Shown piece by piece: positions 2,319 to 22,002 of a DNA stretch of 55,314 bases (within the stretch, counting starts at the first letter, position 1; every line of letters begins with the position of its first letter). The stretch is from positions 1-55,314 of the forward strand of contig JAENZW010000003.1 of assembly GCA_016841065.1 (NCBI GenBank), read 5' to 3'. The notes beneath the pieces were generated by a model that ran no database searches, was not told the DNA's origin, and was given only the letters and a program-made list of their open reading frames with translations. A program made the position numbers and the translations under genes. The stretch is from Actinomycetota bacterium. GTDB taxonomy: Bacteria; Actinomycetota; Coriobacteriia; Anaerosomatales; JAENZW01.

Positions 2319-3560
2319 ATGCCGAGTCCGGCACGAACCGTAGTCGTGATGAAATACGGCGGGACCTCGGTGGCCACGCCCGAGGGACGAAACGCAATCG
2401 CACGGCGGGTGATTGAAGCGCAGGAGCAGGAGATGTCTCCCGTCGTCGTCGTGTCCGCGATGGGCCGCGCCGGTGCTCCGTACGCCACGGATACCCTGCT
2501 CGGGCTCGTAGCCGGGCTTCCTTCCGACGACAGAGAAGCCGACCTGTTGGTCGGCTGCGGCGAGATTGTGTCGGCCGTCGTTGTCGCACACGAACTTCGA
2601 GCTGCCGGAGTCGACGCGCGGGCGTTCACGGGACCGGAAGCCGGCATAGCGACCGACGGAGTCCACAGGAACGCTGCCGTCACGGAGATTCACCCGGGAC
2701 CGCTCCTTTCGGCAATCGAAGCCGGCGTCTGTCCGGTCGTCGCTGGCTTCCAGGGCATAGGGGAGTCCGGACGCCTCACGACACTCGGACGCGGTGGCTC
2801 CGACACGACGGCGTGCGCCCTTGGCGTGGCTCTGGGAGCCCGAGCTGTCGAGATCTACACGGACGTCGACGGTGTGATGACTGCAGACCCGCAAACATGC
2901 GAAGGAAGCGCGGTGCTTGAGACGGTGGGTGCCGACGAGCTGTTCCAGATGGCGAGGCATGGCGCCCGCGTCGTGCACACGCCCGCGGCAGAGCTCGCTC
3001 TCGCGAGCGGACTTGCTGTTCGCGTAAGGAACACGTATTCCGACCACCCCGGCACGGCGGTCACCGACATCGCATCCTACCGCCCGGACCGAGTGGCAAC
3101 AGCAGTTGCGCATGCCGATGGCGTTGCACGAATCGTCGTAGCTCTGCCTGCCCCCGAAGGGACACCGAGTCATATGTCCGCCCAAGCACGCGTGTACAGG
3201 GCGATGGCAGACGCGGGAGTTTCGCTCGACATGTTCACGCCAGCCGGCGAGACGCTTCTGTTCACGGTTGGTGAGGAACTACTCGATCGGGCCTCCGAGG
3301 TGCTGGGCGCGCTGGGCTTCACGTATCGCGCGCAAACGCAGCTGGCGAAAGTCACCCTGGTGGGCGCTGGAATGCACGGCGTTCCGGGGGTCATGGCACG
3401 GGTTGCCGAGGCACTCGTTGACGCCGGGGTGACCGTTCTTCAGAGCGCTGACAGCCATACAACGATCTCGGTACTCGTCACGTCGGATCAAGCACATCAG
3501 GCTGTCCAGGCGCTCCACACCGGCTTCGAGCTGGATTCACCGTCGTCGACCGCTACGTGA
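2319..3560 (+). CDS. lysC: Aspartate kinase
   Basis: The 413-residue protein opens with the aspartokinase signature KYGGTSV at about residues 12-18 and carries the GRGGSDTTA loop of the amino-acid kinase fold. Its C-terminal third holds two ACT domains, the usual site of feedback inhibition by lysine or threonine. It phosphorylates aspartate, the entry step to lysine, DAP, threonine and methionine. GGAGGA at 2307-2312, inside the end of dapB, serves as its ribosome site. Actinobacterial aspartokinases often make a shorter beta subunit from an internal start; I cannot confirm one here. No asd gene is seen in the window. Confidence 0.95.
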   Translation: MPSPARTVVVMKYGGTSVATPEGRNAIARRVIEAQEQEMSPVVVVSAMGRAGAPYATDTLLGLVAGLPSDDREADLLVGCGEIVSAVVVAHELRAAGVDARAFTGPEAGIATDGVHRNAAVTEIHPGPLLSAIEAGVCPVVAGFQGIGESGRLTTLGRGGSDTTACALGVALGARAVEIYTDVDGVMTADPQTCEGSAVLETVGADELFQMARHGARVVHTPAAELALASGLAVRVRNTYSDHPGTAVTDIASYRPDRVATAVAHADGVARIVVALPAPEGTPSHMSAQARVYRAMADAGVSLDMFTPAGETLLFTVGEELLDRASEVLGALGFTYRAQTQLAKVTLVGAGMHGVPGVMARVAEALVDAGVTVLQSADSHTTISVLVTSDQAHQAVQALHTGFELDSPSSTAT

Positions 3561-3627
3561 CGGCTCGATGTCCGCTGGGCCGGACCGGCGCATGTGTCAG
3601 GGCGTTGTGTCACAATACTGCACGTGA

Positions 3628-3659
3628 AAGCGGGTTCCGCGGGCGGATCGTGCCCGCTT
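3628..3659 (+). promoter_or_regulatory. Leader hairpin before dapA
   Basis: AAGCGGG (3628-3634) pairs with CCCGCTT (3653-3659), and inside it GGGC (3641-3644) can pair with GCCC (3652-3655), so two alternative stems share bases. It lies 21 bases before the dapA start. It could be a leftover terminator of lysC or a small attenuator; nothing identifies it as a known riboswitch. Confidence 0.3.
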
Positions 3660-3680
3660 GGGTCAAAGGGGAGAACAGCG

Positions 3681-4577
3681 ATGGCTGAACCTCGTTTCGG
3701 CAGAATGCTCACAGCGATGGTGACGCCGTTTGGATCGGACGGCGGCCTTGACCTTGCGCGCGCGCAGGGGCTCGCTCACCGACTTCTGGACTCCGGCACA
3801 CAGGGCCTCGTCGTTTGCGGCACCACCGGCGAGTCGCCCACCGTATTCTACGATCAGAAGATGGATCTCTTCCGCGCCGTTGTCGAGGCCGTCGCCGGCC
3901 GGGCGCCGGTCATCGCCAACGCAGGCGACAACTGTACTGACGATTCGGTTGAGTTCGCCCAGAAAGTCGTTTCTCTCGGTGTGGACGCAATCATGGCTGT
4001 CGTGCCGTACTACAACAAGCCTCCGCAGGAGGGCCTGTACCGCCATTTCCGCTCGATAGCCGAGTCGGTCGACGTGCCGGTCATCCTGTACAACATCCCA
4101 GGCCGTTGTGTGATCAACATGACTGCCGAGACGACGCTTCGCCTTGCTCGAGATGTTGAGAACATCGTCGCCGTCAAAGAAGCCAGCGGTGATCTCACCC
4201 AGATCGCTCAGATCATCGACGGCGCACCCGACGGCTTCGAGGTGCTGTCTGGCGACGACGAGATGACCTTGCCGATGATGGGACTTGGCGGCACTGGCGT
4301 GATCTCCGTCATTTCCCATGTTGCGGGACCCCGGTTCAGGGAAATGATCGACGCACAGGCTGCCGGGGATCACACTCGAGCCCTGCGAATCCACCTTGAG
4401 CTCCTTCCTTTGATGAAGGCGCTCTTCATGACCGCAAACCCGATTATGGTCAAGAAAGCCCTGGATCTTCAGGGCTTCCCCGTTGGGGGTGTCCGACTGC
4501 CTCTGGTCGATGCCAACGACGAACAGACCGCTGAACTCGTTCGAATCATGCAAGGGGTAGGAGTCCTGCCCGCATAG
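3681..4577 (+). CDS. dapA: 4-hydroxy-tetrahydrodipicolinate synthase
   Basis: DapA condenses pyruvate with aspartate semialdehyde. The 298-residue (beta/alpha)8 aldolase shows the Schiff-base Lys at about residue 166 in VKEASGD, the GTTGE substrate loop near residue 50, the VPYYNKP segment with the active-site Tyr, and YNIPGR. I take ATG 3681 (MAEPRFGRM) as the start because AGGGGAG sits just upstream and it gives the family's normal length. An in-frame start at 3594 would add 29 residues unlike any DapA. It is the third gene of a dapB-lysC-dapA group, separated from lysC by about 120 bases that contain a hairpin. Confidence 0.96.
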   Translation: MAEPRFGRMLTAMVTPFGSDGGLDLARAQGLAHRLLDSGTQGLVVCGTTGESPTVFYDQKMDLFRAVVEAVAGRAPVIANAGDNCTDDSVEFAQKVVSLGVDAIMAVVPYYNKPPQEGLYRHFRSIAESVDVPVILYNIPGRCVINMTAETTLRLARDVENIVAVKEASGDLTQIAQIIDGAPDGFEVLSGDDEMTLPMMGLGGTGVISVISHVAGPRFREMIDAQAAGDHTRALRIHLELLPLMKALFMTANPIMVKKALDLQGFPVGGVRLPLVDANDEQTAELVRIMQGVGVLPA

Positions 4578-4619
4578 GTCAAACGAACGGCAGGCCGTCC
4601 CGCTGCTTGCCTTGCAGTA

Positions 4620-4642
4620 CGAACGCGATGCCCTCGCGTTCG
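4620..4642 (+). terminator. Perfect hairpin between dapA and RNase J gene
   Basis: CGAACGCG and CGCGTTCG form a perfect 8-bp stem around a 7-base loop. CATTTC follows, which is a poor T-tract. It may end the dap transcript or sit in the RNase J leader, 33 bases before the ATG. Confidence 0.45.
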
Positions 4643-4674
4643 CATCCATTTCAAGGAGGACTGAAGCACACCAT

Positions 4675-6345
4675 ATGACACAGAAGAAGAACCGTCTCAG
4701 GGTGATTCCGCTTGGCGGGCTCGATGAGATCGGTAAGAACATGACCGTCATCGAGTACGGCAACGACATGATCGTCATCGATGCCGGCATTATGTTCCCG
4801 GACGAGGATCACCCCGGAGTAGACCTCATCCTTCCCGACTACAGCTACATCGTGAAGCGCAAGGACAAACTCCGTGGAGTAGTCATCACGCACGGTCACG
4901 AAGATCACACCGGAGCCGTGCCCTACCTACTCAAGGAAGTGGGGGAGCGGACTCCCGTCCTCGGCACTAAACTCACACTCGGTCTGATACAGGTGAAACT
5001 CGACGAACACGGCCTCAAGAAGCCGAAGCTCCGTGAGATTCGCGCCGGCGGCCACGTGAGTCTGGGTGGATTCGGACTGGACTTCCTCGCCGTGAATCAC
5101 TCCATCCCCGACGGCGTGGCGGTACTCGTGCGCACGCCCGTCGGCAACCTTCTGCATACCGGCGATTTCAAGTTCGATCAGACCCCGGTGGACGGACGTC
5201 TCACCGACTACGATATGCTCGCAAAGGCGGGCAAACAGGGTGTCATGTTGCTGATGTCTGACTCGACAAACGCCGATTCTACCGGCGTCACGAGATCGGA
5301 GTCCGAGGTTGGCGTATCGCTTCGCGAACTGATGGCGAAGGCCAAGCAGCGCGTCATTGTGGCCTCCTTCGCCAGCCACATCCACCGCGTGCAGCAAGTC
5401 TGCGATGCAGCCGTGGCATGCGGACGAAAGGTCGTTGTGACCGGTCGGTCGATGGTCAACAACACACGCATCGCCCGCCAGCTCGGCTACCTTGTCATCG
5501 CGGAAGACAACATCCTCGACGCCTTCGAGATGAGTGGGCTCGCTCCGGAGGAAATCTGCGTGTTGTCCACCGGCAGCCAGGGCGAGCCGCTATCGGCACT
5601 TGCGCGCATGGCAAACGGTGACCACCGCACGGTAGAGATCGAGGAGGGCGATACCGTCATCATCTCCGCGTCGCCGGTTCCCGGCAACGAGAAGGCCGTT
5701 TGGCGGGTCATCAACCGTCTCGCCAAGTCAGGGGCTCACGTCAAGCATAGAGGCTCCCACGACGTCCACGTCTCCGGACATGCGGCCGCGGAAGAGCTGC
5801 GCCTCATGCTCAACCTGGTCAAGCCAAAGTACTTCGTACCGATTCACGGCGAAACCCGGCATTTGCACGCCCACGCCGACATCGCACGCTCCGTGGGTGT
5901 TGCGAATGAGGACATCTTCATTCTCGAGAACGGCGATTGTCTCGAGATCACCGAGGCAGGCGCACGTACCGCGCAGCAGGTAGAGTCCGGGGTCGTGTAC
6001 GTCGACGGGCTCTCGGTCGGCGACATCGGCGATCTCGTCCTGCGCGACAGGCAGCTTCTTGCACGTGACGGCATCGCTGCCGTGGTCATCGCACTCGACA
6101 CTCAGAACGCGAAGTACGTCGGCCAGCCCGAACTTGTCACACGTGGAGTCATCCTCAACGTCGGCGAAGAAGGCATCCTTGACGACGCTCGTGCCCGTCT
6201 TACCAAGACCCTCACGAAGCTCGCCAAAGAGGGTGTGACCGACCACGCAGTCATCAAGAATGCGGTGCGGGAGTCCCTTTCACAGTTCATGTGGGAACAA
6301 CTTCGGCGTAGACCCATGATCATTCCCGTGGTCATGGAGGTCTAG
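4675..6345 (+). CDS. rnj: Ribonuclease J
   Basis: This 556-residue metallo-beta-lactamase/beta-CASP nuclease has the HGHEDHTGA metal motif near residue 74. The beta-CASP part includes the SDSTNAD and SASPVPGNE segments, and the C-terminal domain is the RMMBL/RNase J type. It is a 5'-to-3' exonuclease and endonuclease in mRNA decay and rRNA maturation. ATG 4675 (MTQKKNRLR) is chosen over an in-frame ATG at 4612 because AGGAGG lies at 4654-4659 and the length fits the family. The ribosome site is 15 bases away, longer than usual. RNase Y is encoded at 16613, so both main Gram-positive-type decay nucleases are present. Confidence 0.95.
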   Translation: MTQKKNRLRVIPLGGLDEIGKNMTVIEYGNDMIVIDAGIMFPDEDHPGVDLILPDYSYIVKRKDKLRGVVITHGHEDHTGAVPYLLKEVGERTPVLGTKLTLGLIQVKLDEHGLKKPKLREIRAGGHVSLGGFGLDFLAVNHSIPDGVAVLVRTPVGNLLHTGDFKFDQTPVDGRLTDYDMLAKAGKQGVMLLMSDSTNADSTGVTRSESEVGVSLRELMAKAKQRVIVASFASHIHRVQQVCDAAVACGRKVVVTGRSMVNNTRIARQLGYLVIAEDNILDAFEMSGLAPEEICVLSTGSQGEPLSALARMANGDHRTVEIEEGDTVIISASPVPGNEKAVWRVINRLAKSGAHVKHRGSHDVHVSGHAAAEELRLMLNLVKPKYFVPIHGETRHLHAHADIARSVGVANEDIFILENGDCLEITEAGARTAQQVESGVVYVDGLSVGDIGDLVLRDRQLLARDGIAAVVIALDTQNAKYVGQPELVTRGVILNVGEEGILDDARARLTKTLTKLAKEGVTDHAVIKNAVRESLSQFMWEQLRRRPMIIPVVMEV

Positions 6346-14580: not shown

Positions 14581-15615
14581 ATGGAACCTGAGAAGGCAAA
14601 GGTCCTTGAAGTTACCCGAGAGCAGATTGAGCGCAAGTTCGGAAAGGGCTCGCTCATGCGACTCGGAGAGAGTGATGCAGTTGCTGTGGTGGCCTCCATT
14701 CCGACCGGATCCCTGGCCCTTGATGCTGCACTGGGCATTGGCGGCGTACCGCGCGGACGCATCGTCGAGATATACGGTCCCGAGTCGTCTGGCAAGACCA
14801 CGCTTGCCCTTCAAATCGTAGCGGAGGCTCAGGCGCTCGGAGGAATCGCCGCTTTCATCGACGCCGAACATGCGCTTGATCCCAGCTATGCCGCGCGCCT
14901 CGGAGTGGATATCGAGGAGATTCTCATCAGCCAGCCTGACACCGGCGAACAGGCGCTCGAAATCGCAGACATGCTCGTTCGTAGTGGGGCCATTGACGTC
15001 GTCGTCATTGACTCGGTGGCGGCCCTCGTGCCGCGTGCTGAGCTCGAGGGCGAGATGGGGGACGTCTCTGTGGGTCTTCAGGCACGCCTGATGAGTCAAG
15101 CTCTGCGGAAACTTGCTGGCTCTCTCAGCAAGTCGTGCACGACCTGCATCTTCATCAACCAGCTCCGCGAGAAGATCGGCGTCATGTTCGGAAGCCCGGA
15201 GACTACGAGTGGGGGCCGCGCTCTGAAGTTCTACTCCACCATTCGAATCGACGTTCGCCGCATTGACTCGATCAAGCAGGGAACCGACATCATCGGCAAC
15301 CGCGTTCGTGCCAAGGTGGTCAAGAACAAGGTCGCGGCGCCGTTCAGACAAGCCGAATTCGACCTGATGTACGGGACAGGCATCTCGAAAGAGGGAGGCG
15401 TTCTCGACCTCGGTGTCGAGGAGGGCATCGTCGCCAAGTCGGGCGCCTGGTACACGTACGGCGAAGAACGACTCGGTCAGGGCCGTGAGGCCGCCAAGGA
15501 GTTCCTGCGAGAGCATTCGGATCTCCGGAACGATATCGAGACGCGGGTCCGTGAGGCCCTCGGCCTGGCACCGCCTGCGGCGGCCAAGGGTGCGAAGCAA
15601 ACCGACGACGACTAG
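14581..15615 (+). CDS. recA: Recombinase RecA
   Basis: RecA forms filaments on single-stranded DNA, catalyses strand exchange and triggers LexA self-cleavage. The 344-residue protein has Walker A GPESSGKT at residues 66-73, the VVIDSVAAL Walker B strand, the L2 loop INQLREKIG and the GGRALKFY signature. The C-terminal tail is acidic and ends in DDD. It has its own LexA-controlled promoter and is followed 10 bases later by recX, the usual pairing. No intein is present. Confidence 0.98.
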
Positions 15616-15625
15616 CTGCCATCCA

Positions 15626-16261
15626 GTGAGCGCCAAGCCCGCCACCCTTACGATCACCAGAGCGTCACCGAGAGGCCGGACGGTAGAACTGTACCTTGAT
15701 GACGAGTTTGCACGCACGACATCCATGGGTGTCGTGCGTGACCTCTCTCTGACTGACGGAGATCAGTTCACGCTCGCCGGCCTCAACGGGGCAATCGACG
15801 AGTCCGAACTTCGGGCGGCGCTTGACCGCGCATTCCGCATTCTCGGATATCACGAGCGCTCAGTGTCCCAAATGCGCAAGGCTCTACGGGATGACGGATA
15901 CGCCCAGGGATCCATCGAGAGAACGATCGCCCGTTTGCTCGAACTCGAATTGCTCGATGACACGCGATTCGCGTCTGCGTATGTCCGGACCAAATCCTGC
16001 GCGGGATGGGGTAGAAGGCGAGTATCCCAAGGACTGTCCCACGCGGGCGTGTCGGACGAAATCGCCGACGCCGCTTTGGATGCAGAATCCCCGGCGGAAG
16101 GCCAGCGCGATCGAGCGCGCCTACTCGTCCGATCATTCGATAGCGCTGATCCCAAAGCCCGCGATCGAGCGATTCGCCGTCTGGTCACTCGTGGGTTCAC
16201 CTGGGATGATGCGAGAGCCGTCGTGCTCGAATCTGGCTCCACCGACGCGGACGATCAGTGA
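15626..16261 (+). CDS. recX: Regulatory protein RecX
   Basis: RecX binds RecA filaments and limits their activity. The predicted 211-residue protein shows the three-helix repeats of the family, with ALDRAFRILGYHERSVSQMR and GYAQGSIERTIARLLELELLDD typical of repeat one, followed by the DDTRFASAYV segment. The first 60 residues are an extra N-terminal beta region common in actinobacterial and Bacillus RecX. The GTG at 15626 is the best start near recA, but its ribosome site is weak. A hairpin follows directly after the stop. Confidence 0.88.
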   Translation: MSAKPATLTITRASPRGRTVELYLDDEFARTTSMGVVRDLSLTDGDQFTLAGLNGAIDESELRAALDRAFRILGYHERSVSQMRKALRDDGYAQGSIERTIARLLELELLDDTRFASAYVRTKSCAGWGRRRVSQGLSHAGVSDEIADAALDAESPAEGQRDRARLLVRSFDSADPKARDRAIRRLVTRGFTWDDARAVVLESGSTDADDQ

Positions 16262-16612: not shown

Positions 16613-18145
16613 ATGGATCCGACCATCATCGCGTTGCTTGCGGTCGTCATCGGTGTCGCCCTCGGCTTTGCACTCAATCGATTCCTCGTGCGAGACCGCA
16701 CTACGCGTGCGCGCGAGGACGCTCAGCGCATCGAACAGGATGCTGAGAAGCAGGCCGAGACGCTCAAGAAAGAGGCCTTGATCGAGGCCAAGGACCAGAT
16801 CTTCAAGATGAAGCAGGAGGCTGAGACCGAGGCCAAAGAGCGTCGCAAGGAGCTCACGTCCCTCGAGAATCGGCTCATGCAGCGCGAGGAGAATCTCGAC
16901 CGCAGGGTGGAGTCCGTCGACAAGCGCGAGCATCAGATAGCCAGTCAGGTCGGCCAGATTCAGAAACGTGAGCGCGACCTCGAGGAGCTTGTCGAGGAGG
17001 AGCGTCGGCGTCTCGAGTCCACCGCCGGCATGACGTCGGATGAGGCGAAGACCGTTCTCATGTCGCGTATCGAGGACGACGTCAAGAAAGAAGCCGCCGC
17101 GTTCATCCGTGAAACCGAGTCGCGTGCACGCGAGGAGGCCGACAAGAAGGCCCGCAACATAGTCGGCATCGCCATCCAGCGCGTGGCGGCGGACCACACA
17201 GCCGAATCCACCGTCTCCGTCGTGCACATTCCGAGTGACGACATGAAGGGCCGGATCATCGGGCGTGAAGGACGCAACATCCGCGCATTCGAGTCTCTAA
17301 CGGGAATCAACCTCATCATCGATGACACCCCTGAGGCGGTCATCCTCTCCAGCTTCGACCCGGTTCGTCGCGAAATCGGCCGCATCACGCTCGAATCGTT
17401 GATTGCGGACGGCCGCATTCATCCCGCCCGCATTGAGGAGATGTTCAACAAGGCCGAAGCCGCGGTCGCCCAGCAGGTTCAGGAAGCCGGAGAGCAAGCG
17501 GCTTTCGATGGTGACGTCCACGGACTTCACGCCGAACTCGTGCGCACGCTCGGCAGGCTCAAGTATCGAACCAGCTACGGCCAGAACGTCCTCAATCACT
17601 CGCTCGAGGTCGCTCATCTCGCGGGTGTCATGGCCTCGGAGCTCGGCGTCGATGTCAAGCTCTGCCGACGTGCCGGACTTCTGCACGATCTCGGCAAGGC
17701 CATTGACCACGAGGTCGAAGGTCCGCACGCAGTCATCGGTGCCGATCTGGCGCGCAGAATGAACGAGTCACAGCCGATACAACACTGCATCGAGGCTCAC
17801 CATGCCGATGTCGAGCCCGCGACGGTCGAGGCAGTGATCGTGCAGGCTGCCGACGCAATTTCTGCGGCGCGGCCCGGGGCCCGGCGAGAAACACTCGAGA
17901 GCTACATCAAGCGACTTGAGAAGCTCGAGGCTGTTGCTGAATCGCACGCCGGTGTCGAGAAGTGCTATGCCATGCAGGCGGGTCGCGAGATTCGTGTCAT
18001 GGTCAAGCCCGACGACATCGACGATTCCACCGCGGTCATTCTTGCTCGGGACATCGCGAAGCAGATTGAAGAAGAACTCGAGTACCCCGGCCAGATCAAG
18101 GTCATGGTCATCCGGGAAAGTCGCGCGGTCGACTACGCGAAGTAG
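16613..18145 (+). CDS. rny: Ribonuclease Y
   Basis: RNase Y is a membrane-anchored endoribonuclease that starts mRNA turnover. The 510-residue protein has a single N-terminal membrane helix (about residues 4-24), a long charged coiled coil to about residue 190, a KH RNA-binding domain with [15 protein letters not shown], and an HD domain with [12 protein letters not shown]. The end, [13 protein letters not shown], is typical of the family. A strong AAGGAGGGG site precedes ATG 16613, and a terminator follows. The order recA-(recX)-rny-X-spoVS-miaB matches Bacillus, except that Bacillus has ymdB at X. Confidence 0.97.
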
Positions 18146-18197
18146 TCCGTTCGCAAGATGCCGAGGCGTATACTCGTGATGGCTACCAGCCATGAAG

Positions 18198-18224
18198 GAA
18201 GGAGGCCGACTAGCGGCCTCCTTC
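18198..18224 (+). terminator. Terminator after rny
   Basis: GAAGGAGGCCG and CGGCCTCCTTC make a perfect 11-bp stem with an ACTAG loop, followed by TGTCGATTG. A smaller perfect hairpin, ATGGCT-ACC-AGCCAT (18179-18193), stands just before it, and TATACT (18169-18174) could be a -10 that starts transcription into both. Confidence 0.75.
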
Positions 18225-18291
18225 TGTCGATTGAACACGCGTCACGCATCAAGCCCGTAGCCACAGACCCGAGAGCCTCCGAGTTGAGCTG

Positions 18292-19374
18292 ATGACAACA
18301 CAGGATAGCGATTCCATGCTCGATTTTGTCTCCGCGGTTTCAGGTGAGACGTATCTGAAGGTCGAGGAGACTCTCGGTGACGGCTTCGTCCGACTACGTG
18401 TCTCGGAGGCAGAGCGTCGTCAGGCGAAGCACGACATACAGAACTTCGAAGATGTCGTGATTGAGCTTCTCAGAAACTCCCGCGACGCTCACGCCCAACG
18501 AATCTTCGTTGCGACCGGCCGTGAAGCCGACGATCGCATCCTCACGATGATCGATGACGGCGTGGGAATACCGCCCAACCTCCACGAGGCGGTGTTCGAG
18601 CCCCGCGTTACCTCCAAGCTTGAGACCATGGTCATGGACCGCTGGGGGGTCCATGGGCGCGGTATGGCCCTATTCTCGGTCAAGTCCAACGTCGGTGAGT
18701 GCATGGTGGCCGCCTCCGACGTGCATCGCGGAGCATCCGTTCTGGTACGCGTCGACACCTCGCTGCTGTCCGAGCGCGCAGACCAGTCGTCTTGGCCGGT
18801 CGTCGAGCGTGATGACACGGGGACCTTGTGCGTAATGCGTGGCCCGCACAATATCGTCAGGCGCGTCCTCGAGTTCGCTTGCGAACACCCAGAGCTGGAT
18901 ATCTATCTCGGATCGCCCGTTGAGATACTCGCAACCATGCATGCCTTGGCTCGAGACACGCTCGACACATCCGACCTGCTCTTCTGTGACGATTCAGGCC
19001 GCCTGCCTGTGTGGCAACGGCCGGCCGCGACATCAGATGCCTCTGACCTTGTTGCCATAGCCGAGTCCATCGCGCTATCGGTGTCCGAACGTTCTGCCCA
19101 CCGAATCTTCGCTGGCGAATTGGCACCATTGGACACGGTTCTTCACCAGGTTCTTGTCGAAGACGAGCCAATCCAACCCGCGCAGCCCGATATCTACCGC
19201 GATCGGCGGGGATTGAAGATCCACGCCGGAGATCTCACTTCCTTCAAGCGAGACCTCACAACAGCATTCGATCAACTCGCTGAGCGCTACTACCTTCACC
19301 TCAAGGGCGAGCCCAGGATCCATGTGGGACGCGATCAGATACGAGTTCGCTTCGACGTTGACAAGGAGGAGTAG
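18292..19374 (+). CDS. GHKL (HSP90-like fold) ATPase of unknown function
   Basis: The first half of this 360-residue soluble protein is a GHKL ATP-binding domain. The N-box has Glu58, Asn62 and Asp65 (ELLRNSRDAHA), the G1 box is DDGVGIP at residues 88-94, and the G2 box is GVHGRGMALFSV near 119-131. No dimerisation/phospho-acceptor domain, receiver or membrane segment is seen, so it is not a normal histidine kinase; the layout is closer to MutL, MORC or HSP90-type ATPases. The C-terminal half is not recognised. It lies between rny and spoVS, the place held by ymdB in Bacillus. The start may be ATG 18292 or ATG 18316; the ribosome site is weak. Confidence 0.75.
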   Translation: MTTQDSDSMLDFVSAVSGETYLKVEETLGDGFVRLRVSEAERRQAKHDIQNFEDVVIELLRNSRDAHAQRIFVATGREADDRILTMIDDGVGIPPNLHEAVFEPRVTSKLETMVMDRWGVHGRGMALFSVKSNVGECMVAASDVHRGASVLVRVDTSLLSERADQSSWPVVERDDTGTLCVMRGPHNIVRRVLEFACEHPELDIYLGSPVEILATMHALARDTLDTSDLLFCDDSGRLPVWQRPAATSDASDLVAIAESIALSVSERSAHRIFAGELAPLDTVLHQVLVEDEPIQPAQPDIYRDRRGLKIHAGDLTSFKRDLTTAFDQLAERYYLHLKGEPRIHVGRDQIRVRFDVDKEE

Positions 19375-19499: not shown

Positions 19500-19772
19500 G
19501 TGGAAGTACTCAAAGTGTCGAGCAAGTCGAACCCCAACTCCGTCGCTGGCGCCCTTGCTGGCATCGTTCGCGAACAGGGTGCTGTAGAGATGCAGACGGT
19601 CGGCGCGGGAGCCCTCAACCAGGCGATCAAAGCGGTCGCGATCGCACGCGGCTTCATCGCCCCCTCAGGTCTCGAGCTCACGTGCGTTCCCGCCTTCGCT
19701 GACATACTCATCAACGGCGAGGAGCGAACAGCAATCCGCCTCCTCATCGAACCTCGCGACATGCATCGGTAG
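19500..19772 (+). CDS. spoVS: Stage V sporulation protein S homologue (Alba-fold)
   Basis: The 90-residue protein matches SpoVS along its full length: MEVLKVSSKSNPNSVAGALA, then GAGALNQAIKAVAIARGF and a final EERTAIRLLIEP. The fold is related to Alba nucleic-acid-binding proteins. In Bacillus it affects septum formation and spore coat assembly, yet the gene is widespread in bacteria that do not sporulate, so a general DNA or RNA role is likely. It starts at GTG 19500 with GAGGGAG at 19488-19494. A PHP-family gene begins 17 bases later. Confidence 0.95.
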   Translation: MEVLKVSSKSNPNSVAGALAGIVREQGAVEMQTVGAGALNQAIKAVAIARGFIAPSGLELTCVPAFADILINGEERTAIRLLIEPRDMHR

Positions 19773-19789: not shown

Positions 19790-20605
19790 ATGCATCTCGA
19801 CCTCCACGTGCACAGCACGGCTTCGGACGGCTCGCTGTCTGCCGAAGATATCGTGCACACTGCTGACAGCCTCGGACTTGCCGCCATCTCCATCACCGAT
19901 CACGACTCGGTTGCGAGCATCGAACCTGCGCTCGATGCGGCACGCGAATTGAGTGTTCTCGTTGTTCCCGGCGTTGAGCTATCCGCAGTTCATGACGGAC
20001 GTGATGTCCACATCCTCGGCTATTTCGTCAATCACACAGATCTTCACTTTCTCGATACGCTTTCCCGACTCAGAGACGCGCGTCTCGAGCGCGCGACGAT
20101 CATCGTCAACGGACTCGCGGACGCCGGCTACGACGTGTCTCTGCAAGATGTTCTGCTCTTGGCCGAGGGCGCGAGCGTCGGCCGATCACACGTCGCACGC
20201 GCGCTTGTCGACCGCGGTCACGCCGACTCTGTAGGAGACGCATTCGAGCGCTTCGTCGGACGAGGCAAGCCCTACTACGTCCCGAAGCCCGTTGCCGAGC
20301 CGGCCTCGGTTATCGAGACGATTGTCCGAGCGGGCGGGGTGCCGGTGTTGGCTCATCCTGGAATCACACGGATCGACGCCGCAATTGCCGATCTCGTGGG
20401 TTGGGGACTAGTGGGGCTGGAGGCGTACCACGCGGATCACGATCCCGCCGACCGCCAGCGCTACGCACGTCTCGCGGAAGAGCTCGGACTGATCGTCACA
20501 GGCGGCTCCGACTTCCACGGCCCGTTGGCCCCTGGAGCTGCCATCGGGGCGGTCGAAGTGCCTGACGACGTACTGGAGCGACTGCAGGCGGCGTCTCGGC
20601 GCTAG
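19790..20605 (+). CDS. PHP-domain phosphoesterase (RNase AM/TrpH type)
   Basis: This 271-residue protein is a polymerase and histidinol phosphatase (PHP) family hydrolase. Metal ligands are seen in DLHVHS (His6, His8), ITDHDS, PGVELSA, LAHPG and GGSDFHG. Length and motifs match COG0613, which includes E. coli RNase AM (YciV), an enzyme that trims 5' ends of short RNAs and hydrolyses 3',5'-bisphosphonucleotides. That activity would fit a neighbourhood rich in RNA enzymes (RNase Y, MiaB, MiaA). Substrate assignment is by family only. Confidence 0.88.
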   Translation: MHLDLHVHSTASDGSLSAEDIVHTADSLGLAAISITDHDSVASIEPALDAARELSVLVVPGVELSAVHDGRDVHILGYFVNHTDLHFLDTLSRLRDARLERATIIVNGLADAGYDVSLQDVLLLAEGASVGRSHVARALVDRGHADSVGDAFERFVGRGKPYYVPKPVAEPASVIETIVRAGGVPVLAHPGITRIDAAIADLVGWGLVGLEAYHADHDPADRQRYARLAEELGLIVTGGSDFHGPLAPGAAIGAVEVPDDVLERLQAASRR

Positions 20606-20664: not shown

Positions 20665-22002
20665 ATGGTCACGACTCCCTTCACGTATCACGTCCGCACC
20701 TTCGGATGTCAGATGAACAAGCACGATTCCGAACGCGTTGCCGGACTTCTGGAATCGAGCGGCCTTTCGCACGGTCCGGATATTGCCTCTGCGGATGTCG
20801 TGGTCTTCATGACGTGCTGCGTTCGAGAGAATGCCGACGGACGCGCCATGGGGCAGGTAGCCTCATTCAAGGCTCTCAAGGACGTGCGTCCACACACCAT
20901 CATCGCCGTCGGCGGATGCGTCTCACAGCGAGATGGCAGCTCACTGCTGCGAGAGCTCCCACATGTGGACATCGTGTTCGGGACGCACAATGTAGGTCGA
21001 TTGCCCGAGCTTCTCTCACGCGCAATGGCAGGGGAGAGAGGCGTCGTCGAGGTGCTTGACGGCACCAACGACTTCGCTAGCGACCTTCCGGGGGTCAGAG
21101 AGCATCCCTGGCACGCATGGGTGCCCATCACTGTGGGTTGCGACAATCACTGCACGTACTGCATCGTGCCCCGAGTCCGCGGCCCCGAGCGCAGTAGAAC
21201 CGTCGAATCAGTCATCGACGAGGTTACTCGATTGGTTGCCGATGGCGTCCGCGAGGTCACCCTCCTCGGCCAGAACGTCAACTCGTACGGCCGAGACTTG
21301 TACGGGCAGCCACGCTTCGCTGAGATTCTCAGCCGTGTCGCGGCGACAGGCGTGCCACGGATTCGGTTCGCGACCAGCCACCCCAAGGATCTGTCGGACG
21401 AGACAATCGCCGTGATGGCAAGCTCGCCGAGCATCTGCAAAGCGCTCCACCTGCCCGTTCAGTCCGGTTCCGACCGCGTTCTGCGCGCGATGAACCGCCA
21501 CTACACGCAGTCGACGTACCTGTCGCTCGTCGGCAGACTGTACGACGCCATCCCGAACCTCGCCCTGTCCACGGATATCATCGTCGGATTTCCCACGGAG
21601 TCCGAAGATGACTTCCAGGACACGCTTCGCGTGGTGCGCGAGGCCCACTACGACCAGGCGTTCACGTTCATCTACTCACCACGCGAAGGCACTCCCGCAG
21701 CGGCGATGGAGGGTCACGTCGACCGAGAGGTCATTCAGGACCGTTTCGATCGTCTTGTCGCAGAGATCCACTCGGGTGCCACAGAGAACAACGCCAAACT
21801 CCTCGGCACGACGCAGCGTGTCCTCGTGGAAGGCGCATCGCGCAGAGACGAGAACGTCCTTGCCGGTCGCAACGAGGGCAACAAGGTCATCCACGCTCCC
21901 ATTCCCATTGGCCGCCGGGCCGAAGAGCTCGCCGGTACCTTCGTGGACGTCGAGATCACCGAGACACACACGTGGTTCCTCGCTGGCACGATCATCGGCT
22001 GA
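20665..22002 (+). CDS. miaB: tRNA-2-methylthio-N6-dimethylallyladenosine synthase
   Basis: MiaB adds the 2-methylthio group to N6-isopentenyladenosine at position 37 of tRNAs reading UNN codons. The 445-residue radical-SAM protein has the MiaB opening RTFGCQMNKHDSER with Cys15, the triad Cys159-x3-Cys163-x2-Cys166 (CDNHCTYC), the VRGPERSR segment and a C-terminal TRAM domain. Its partner MiaA is encoded two genes downstream. No ribosome site is visible, and TACACT at 20650-20655 would place transcription start within a few bases of the ATG, so the mRNA may be leaderless. Confidence 0.95.
   Translation: MVTTPFTYHVRTFGCQMNKHDSERVAGLLESSGLSHGPDIASADVVVFMTCCVRENADGRAMGQVASFKALKDVRPHTIIAVGGCVSQRDGSSLLRELPHVDIVFGTHNVGRLPELLSRAMAGERGVVEVLDGTNDFASDLPGVREHPWHAWVPITVGCDNHCTYCIVPRVRGPERSRTVESVIDEVTRLVADGVREVTLLGQNVNSYGRDLYGQPRFAEILSRVAATGVPRIRFATSHPKDLSDETIAVMASSPSICKALHLPVQSGSDRVLRAMNRHYTQSTYLSLVGRLYDAIPNLALSTDIIVGFPTESEDDFQDTLRVVREAHYDQAFTFIYSPREGTPAAAMEGHVDREVIQDRFDRLVAEIHSGATENNAKLLGTTQRVLVEGASRRDENVLAGRNEGNKVIHAPIPIGRRAEELAGTFVDVEITETHTWFLAGTIIG

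Follow-up and report, generated by a model that had tools for sequence, protein, structure and literature searches.

What does a small ATPase gene do beside the gene for ribonuclease Y (rny), and which of its neighbors does the protein work with? In many bacteria mRNA decay begins with RNase Y, whose known partners are mostly those of Bacillus. In B. subtilis, ymdB, which we take to precede spoVS there, encodes a phosphodiesterase that is unrelated to the ATPase considered here. According to the passages of PMC8266666, ymdB lies in the rny operon and follows rny, and the ATPase gene holds the same position in the window, that is, the whole stretch of 55,314 nucleotides from a Coriobacteriia (Anaerosomatales) contig that was analyzed. 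An earlier note on this DNA had claimed that the order recA, rny, ATPase gene, spoVS, miaB is kept between the window and Bacillus. The named neighbors are present as claimed, but the order is incomplete as given, with recX between recA and rny and a PHP-domain gene between spoVS and miaB. The genes of the locus are as follows.

14581-15615, forward strand: recA, assigned by Pfam.
Within the ORF at 15413-16261, forward strand: recX, assigned by position and by likeness to loci with an annotated Collinsella counterpart.
16613-18145, forward strand: rny (ribonuclease Y), NCBIfam TIGR03319 at 740.6 bits versus a cut-off of 454.35.
18292-19374, forward strand: GHL-type ATPase gene, 360 aa with an ATG start, assigned from the ORF, Pfam HATPase_c/HATPase_c_3, and an AlphaFold model with pLDDT 85.
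19500-19772, forward strand: spoVS, Pfam PF04232 at 8.2e-37, a frequent but not constant neighbor of the ATPase gene.
19790-20605, forward strand: PHP-domain phosphoesterase gene, assigned by Pfam and NCBIfam.
20665-22002, forward strand: miaB, TIGR01574 at 478.1 bits versus a cut-off of 355.3.

In the window, miaA lies downstream of miaB. The top NCBIfam models for the PHP protein were a nucleoside bisphosphate phosphatase and RNase RNM, both under their cut-offs. The Collinsella homologue of the ATPase has the NCBI product name "ATP-binding protein" and nothing more specific.

The ATPase is near-universal in its class and is also present in other Actinomycetota. All but one of the 61 near relatives had a match, as did 293 of the 296 class genomes (267/268 of those of good quality), and the gene is kept in genomes as small as about 1.0-1.1 Mb. 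Among the 396 sampled Actinomycetota genomes, 161 had a match; for one of these carriers (G413) the match was weak, and no ATPase match was found beside rny. A contig search confirmed 513 relatives, far more than chance would give, and the best 80 of these were examined as named loci. The titles of these 80 include Coriobacteriia (the majority), Anaerosomatales, Collinsella, Enorma, and Eggerthellales, together with broad or doubtful labels on metagenome bins (Actinomycetes, Aeromicrobium). The single match in a plasmid collection was to a Collinsella replicon. Outside the class, the divergent family f36 consists of proteins of about 300-400 aa with 31-37% identity. One class genome of 1.4 Mb, G162 (L264, G162:C1), is 99% complete and lacks the ATPase, and it thus constitutes a natural experiment.

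The constant partner of the ATPase is rny, not spoVS, and the genomic link is strong. In all 40 class loci (40/40), rny was the next recognized gene upstream, as it was in 77 of the 80 named loci (the best 80 of 513); the remaining three have 415 bp or less of upstream DNA, ending at a contig end. The locus sets L066-L105 and L106-L185 overlap, with seven contigs apparently common to both. Among the out-of-class genomes for which both positions were listed, rny lay upstream on the same strand in 77 of 79, with spacings that ranged from an 8 bp overlap to a 648 bp gap. The other two are contig breaks, in G535 with an rny end adjoining the ATPase and in G644 with both genes at contig ends. The pair was also present in 4/4 loci read for family f36. 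Hence homologues adjoin rny wherever the assembly permits, and they are not found mostly away from rny and spoVS. Across the 396 phylum genomes, rny was present in 263; 158 had both genes, 105 had rny only, and 130 had neither (these and the gene-order counts are raw genome counts, uncorrected for phylogeny). The three ATPase carriers without rny are genomes that are 67-79% complete. Because 105 of the 263 rny-positive genomes are without the ATPase, RNase Y in general does not need it.

Two irregular arrangements were also observed. A GNAT acetyltransferase gene is located between rny and the ATPase in seven loci (L143, L144, L145, L149, L150, L098, and L102), identified by PF00583 at 1.9e-10 in L143 and by sequence likeness in the other six. 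At G622:C121:62739-64139, rny is broken into several fragments, one of which contains three TAA stops, and a partial ATPase match adjoins it; this reflects either an assembly error or a pseudogene.

Part of the rny-ATPase adjacency is plain synteny, since the whole cluster is conserved. The protein could therefore be an independent housekeeping ATPase that happens to lie inside a stable recA-rny-miaB block, in which recA, recX, miaB, miaA, and dapF are likewise kept over long distances. As a full account we consider this rather unlikely, because spoVS, php, and recA vary around the ATPase while rny does not. spoVS did not adjoin the ATPase in 6/40 class loci and in 7/22 assessable out-of-class loci (L242 and L247, where the loci are cut, were left out of this count). 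In L074, L075, and L076 no recA match was detected within about 6.3-6.5 kb upstream of rny, yet rny and the ATPase are still together. Moreover, other classes retain the pair down to about 31% identity.

The distance between the two genes differs among lineages. In Collinsella and Enorma loci rny and the ATPase nearly touch, with gaps of -20 to +13 bp (1 bp in the annotated Collinsella record), in contrast to the order of the window, where the following element lies between them.

18197-18225, forward strand: covarying RNA hairpin of 12 pairs, intergenic, in loci of the window's order.

Hairpins of at least 10 pairs were found in the rny-ATPase gap of 22 of 23 loci of this order (L106-L139). 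Among dinucleotide shuffles such hairpins arose in 26 of 920, and among coding controls in 1 of 22. Compensatory changes were observed in 6 of 9 consensus pairs (20 loci aligned, three left out). The hairpin of the window has no T tract, and an Rfam search near it returned no family match. Such a hairpin might act on the rny message as a terminator, a processing site, or an attenuator, so that co-transcription of rny and the ATPase in the window's order is not assured.

What kind of protein, then, is linked to rny? Sequence and model together indicate a GHL-type ATPase fold with an intact predicted ATP site. The earlier note's description of a GHKL ATPase with intact N, G1, and G2 boxes was confirmed by the ORF, by Pfam, and by the invariant residues of the following features.

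18433-18915, forward strand: GHL-type Bergerat ATPase domain, residues 48-208, from Pfam and the model, with an approximate downstream limit.
18463-18489, forward strand: N box, E58-LLRN62-SRD65-A66, from the 37-sequence alignment A1, aligning with MutL ELVENSLDA.
18553-18573, forward strand: G1 box, D88-D-G-V-G92-I-P94, from alignment A1.
18646-18672, forward strand: G2 box, G119-V-H-G122-R-G124-M-A-L127, from alignment A1.

Residues E58, N62, D65, D88, G92, G122, and G124 are invariant in the class alignment A1 (37 sequences). E58 is aligned with the first glutamate of the MutL motif, presumably the position of the catalytic base of GHL ATPases. Pfam detected HATPase_c at 3.9e-8 (residues 48-154) and HATPase_c_3 at 3.8e-7, with no further families in the 360-aa protein at E <= 1; PF02518 and PF13589 were above their cut-offs in the window protein and were matched by 37/37 members. 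The best solved-structure match to a profile of the 37 class members was to MutL ATPase domains (2.3e-8). The AlphaFold2 model (71 sequences, pLDDT 85, pTM 0.70) aligned at Z 11.6-13.6 over 117-168 residues (rmsd 2.3-4.9) with ATPase domains from MutL, TopoVI-B, and GyrB, and a viral library comparison returned chiefly kinases and topoisomerases. The structural alignments to GHL ATPase domains begin at residue 47 or before it and extend as far as residues 282-289 of the model; based on the order of strands and helices, we interpret the ATPase fold as ending near residue 208, with later residues perhaps contributing.

With the predicted fold reaching about residue 208, the part without assignment amounts to about 150 residues rather than about 205. 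The earlier note's unassigned C-terminal half is thus shorter than claimed, and otherwise stands, since the stretch had no Pfam or PDB-sequence match and could be assigned neither to MutL nor to a histidine kinase. Outside the ATPase fold, three features were distinguished.

18292-18435, forward strand: N-terminal segment, residues 1-48, candidate dimer strap, from conservation versus low model confidence.
19009-19116, forward strand: HTH-like helical element, residues 240-275, with S265-x-R267-x3-R271, from conservation, model helices, and weak HTH fold matches.
19225-19365, forward strand: C-terminal long helix and beta hairpin, residues 312-358, without an assigned fold, from predicted structures.

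The N-terminal segment ends in a conserved GDGFVRLR..EAERRQAKHD, in which G31, V33, L35, E39, R43, Q44, A45, and D48 are invariant (37-sequence alignment). Residues 25-48 are among the most conserved stretches, although the monomer model gives residues 25-32 a pLDDT < 50. GyrB and MutL have straps, segments that become ordered in the dimer, and a strap ordered only in the dimer would account for residues that are conserved and poorly modeled at once. By analogy with GyrB and MutL, we infer that the segment is a candidate dimer strap.

In the C-terminal part, S265, R267, and R271 are identical in 61/61 sequences across the phylum. The last 155 residues predicted alone gave pLDDT 85.5 and pTM 0.53, and this model matched no known fold at E <= 0.001 or at Z >= 5; the weak structural rows for residues 206-290 included DNA-binding parts of sigma-54, ArgR, and Fur (Z 2.0-3.8). 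A sigma-54-like HTH was examined because the motif G-L-x-I-S-x-R-T resembles what we take to be the RpoN box and because one weak row covers SigN residues 404-465. Comparison with the RpoN domain by hhalign scored 20.6, above 30/30 column shuffles (best 17.4), and paired the same residues as the SigN row. The probability, over 21 columns, was just 2.7%, and it was 1.5% with a deeper C-terminal alignment. Given the low profile probability, we restrict the description of this element to "HTH-like", as suggested by these weak matches (Z up to 3.8). Nif11 was matched by one full-length member (of 37) and by three C-terminal pieces (of 71). A sigma-54 DNA-binding domain was observed in the genome of the window (G000:C41:42701-43177, L278) and in three members of the order, and such domains were found in only 6 of 246 sampled phylum genomes. 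Known dimerizing GHL enzymes have an S5 transducer, and none was recognized in structural comparisons with the full model or the C-terminal model. The C-terminal model likewise had no match to the C-terminal dimerization domain of MutL, although such a negative does not prove absence. On these models, it is chiefly the lack of a recognized S5 transducer that sets the structure apart from known GHL enzymes.

The N-terminal ATPase domain of MutL (Aquifex, E. coli, and B. subtilis) has the N box, G1, a TSK stretch, and the GHL fold in common with this protein. Unlike MutL, the ATPase has only 360 aa and no sequence match past the ATPase part, and its gene adjoins an RNase gene. A stripped-down MutL-like ATPase that works in DNA repair with recA/recX, substituting for a MutL absent from most genomes, would agree with MutL N-terminal domains being the closest relatives in sequence and fold, and with just 3 of the 48 panel genomes having a MutL above the curated threshold. 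We nevertheless find this improbable, because the MutL model TIGR00585 reached 34.2 bits versus a cut-off of 180 and covered residues 50-132 only, the three genomes with a true MutL also carry the ATPase, non-carriers are without MutL too, and recA is unlinked in L074-L076. Within the panel, the f36 genomes G306, G346, and G475 stood out in having more than one MutL-type match each above that threshold.

Could SpoVS, a member of the Alba superfamily (PMC11621453), be the functional partner, and RNase Y a bystander? spoVS is usually the next gene after the ATPase, and SpoVS was present in 20/27 ATPase carriers versus 3/20 non-carriers in panels that were hand-picked and uncorrected for relatedness. 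This is nonetheless very unlikely. G300, G496, G298, G348, and three f36 genomes are carriers without spoVS, G162 has retained the order rny-spoVS-miaB after loss of the ATPase, and spoVS adjoins rny without the ATPase in L225, L265, and L266. The earlier note had tied the function to RNase Y or SpoVS; constant linkage argues for the former, and the loci without spoVS argue against the latter. In the same panels, a PSP1 (RicT-type) protein was detected in 27/27 carriers, in G162, and in 8/20 non-carriers. In B. subtilis, RicT and RNase Y associate in a stable complex (PMC10470536), and RicT is thus an RNase Y partner, as proposed for the ATPase, although the proteins are unrelated. This complex and the Alba membership of SpoVS give the neighborhood an RNA flavor, which is context and not proof.

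The suggestion that the ATPase replaces ymdB in a fixed slot has to be rejected, since most non-carriers have nothing in the slot and ymdB, where present, is unlinked to rny. In 12 of 20 non-carrier rny loci, the gene immediately downstream of rny, in the same orientation, was miaB, php, or spoVS (the remaining eight loci are L220-L222, L227, L230, L231, L265, with spoVS on the other strand, and L267). YmdB was found in 3/27 carriers and 5/20 non-carriers, never adjoining rny, and can coexist with the ATPase in one genome; PF13277 (YmdB) had no match in the ATPase protein or anywhere in the window's genome, G000. ORFs that resemble one another, 306-323 aa long and hydrophobic at the N-terminus, lie upstream of miaB and downstream of rny or of the ATPase gene in L220 (3628-4599), L221 (3817-4746), L222 (4238-5158), and L246 (4177-5097). 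Those of L220-L222 were considered as alternative occupants of the slot, and are not replacements, since the 306-aa ORF of L246 follows the ATPase. The non-carrier locus L227 has, by eye, an ammonium-transporter-like ORF (3381-5041) and a PII-like ORF between rny and miaB. In the passages of PMC3814617, co-evolution with polC is listed for spoVS and ymdAB, and this ATPase gene is not mentioned. Taken on gene order, the ATPase gene occurs in one part of the phylum, where it follows rny and keeps rny as its constant partner.

A protein kinase or anti-sigma-type regulator built on the HATPase fold is scarcely credible, for although HATPase_c is common to both, the stretch FEPRVTSK resembles what we take to be the F box of histidine kinases, and Foldseek placed histidine kinases intermixed with GHL proteins after MutL at the top, the 37 members matched no phosphoacceptor (HisKA/DHp) Pfam family, as the earlier note had claimed, and no anti-sigma HATPase model (E <= 0.01), and the rows shown in a second structural comparison were GHL ATPases, with no kinases. 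SspH of Streptomyces is likewise an HATPase regulator without kinase domains, but it has a single domain, and its abstract gives no link to rny (PMC9137472).

That the protein is a GHL-type ATPase dedicated to RNase Y and acting as a dimerizing ATP switch is, in our estimate, an evenly balanced proposition. The earlier reading of an "ATP-driven switch" fits the predicted anatomy of the protein. ATP binding would, as it does in GyrB and MutL, close two subunits via the N-terminal segment, and closure would shift the C-terminal parts into contact with RNA, RNase Y, or both. Hydrolysis would then reset the clamp, and access of substrates to RNase Y, or their choice, would thereby be gated by ATP. 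The ATPase would work beside a RicT-type partner, not in its stead. Dimerization, binding of nucleic acid or RNase Y, and gating are suggested by analogy: according to the passages of PMC2292703, topoisomerases, MutL, and MORC systems each combine the action of a GHKL ATPase with that of a nuclease, whether both are in one protein or in two, and the ATPase may act in this way with the neighboring RNase Y. In MORC/paraMORC systems with restriction nucleases, as described there (PMC2292703), the GHKL ATPase is encoded beside the nuclease, as here. These systems differ in that their distribution is sporadic, their nucleases act on DNA, and they have an S5 domain, whereas the present ATPase is near-universal in its class and stands beside a ribonuclease. 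Among openly licensed PMC papers, we found none on a GHKL protein with RNase Y.

Going further, this could be the first GHL ATPase for RNA decay, an RNA counterpart of MutL-MutH or of MORC with its nuclease, in which an ATP-gated dimer loads or positions RNA on RNase Y via a new HTH-like C-terminal module; we offer this tentatively, as possible but somewhat unlikely. GHL ATPases are known from DNA transactions and protein folding, and if the pairing with RNase Y is true, they extend to ribonucleases as well. If the ATP-gated dimer is true, mRNA turnover would be coupled to cellular ATP across the whole class, common gut bacteria included. An unnamed, near-universal ATPase locked to rny in the class of Collinsella would provide a concrete and testable route to the control of RNA turnover there.
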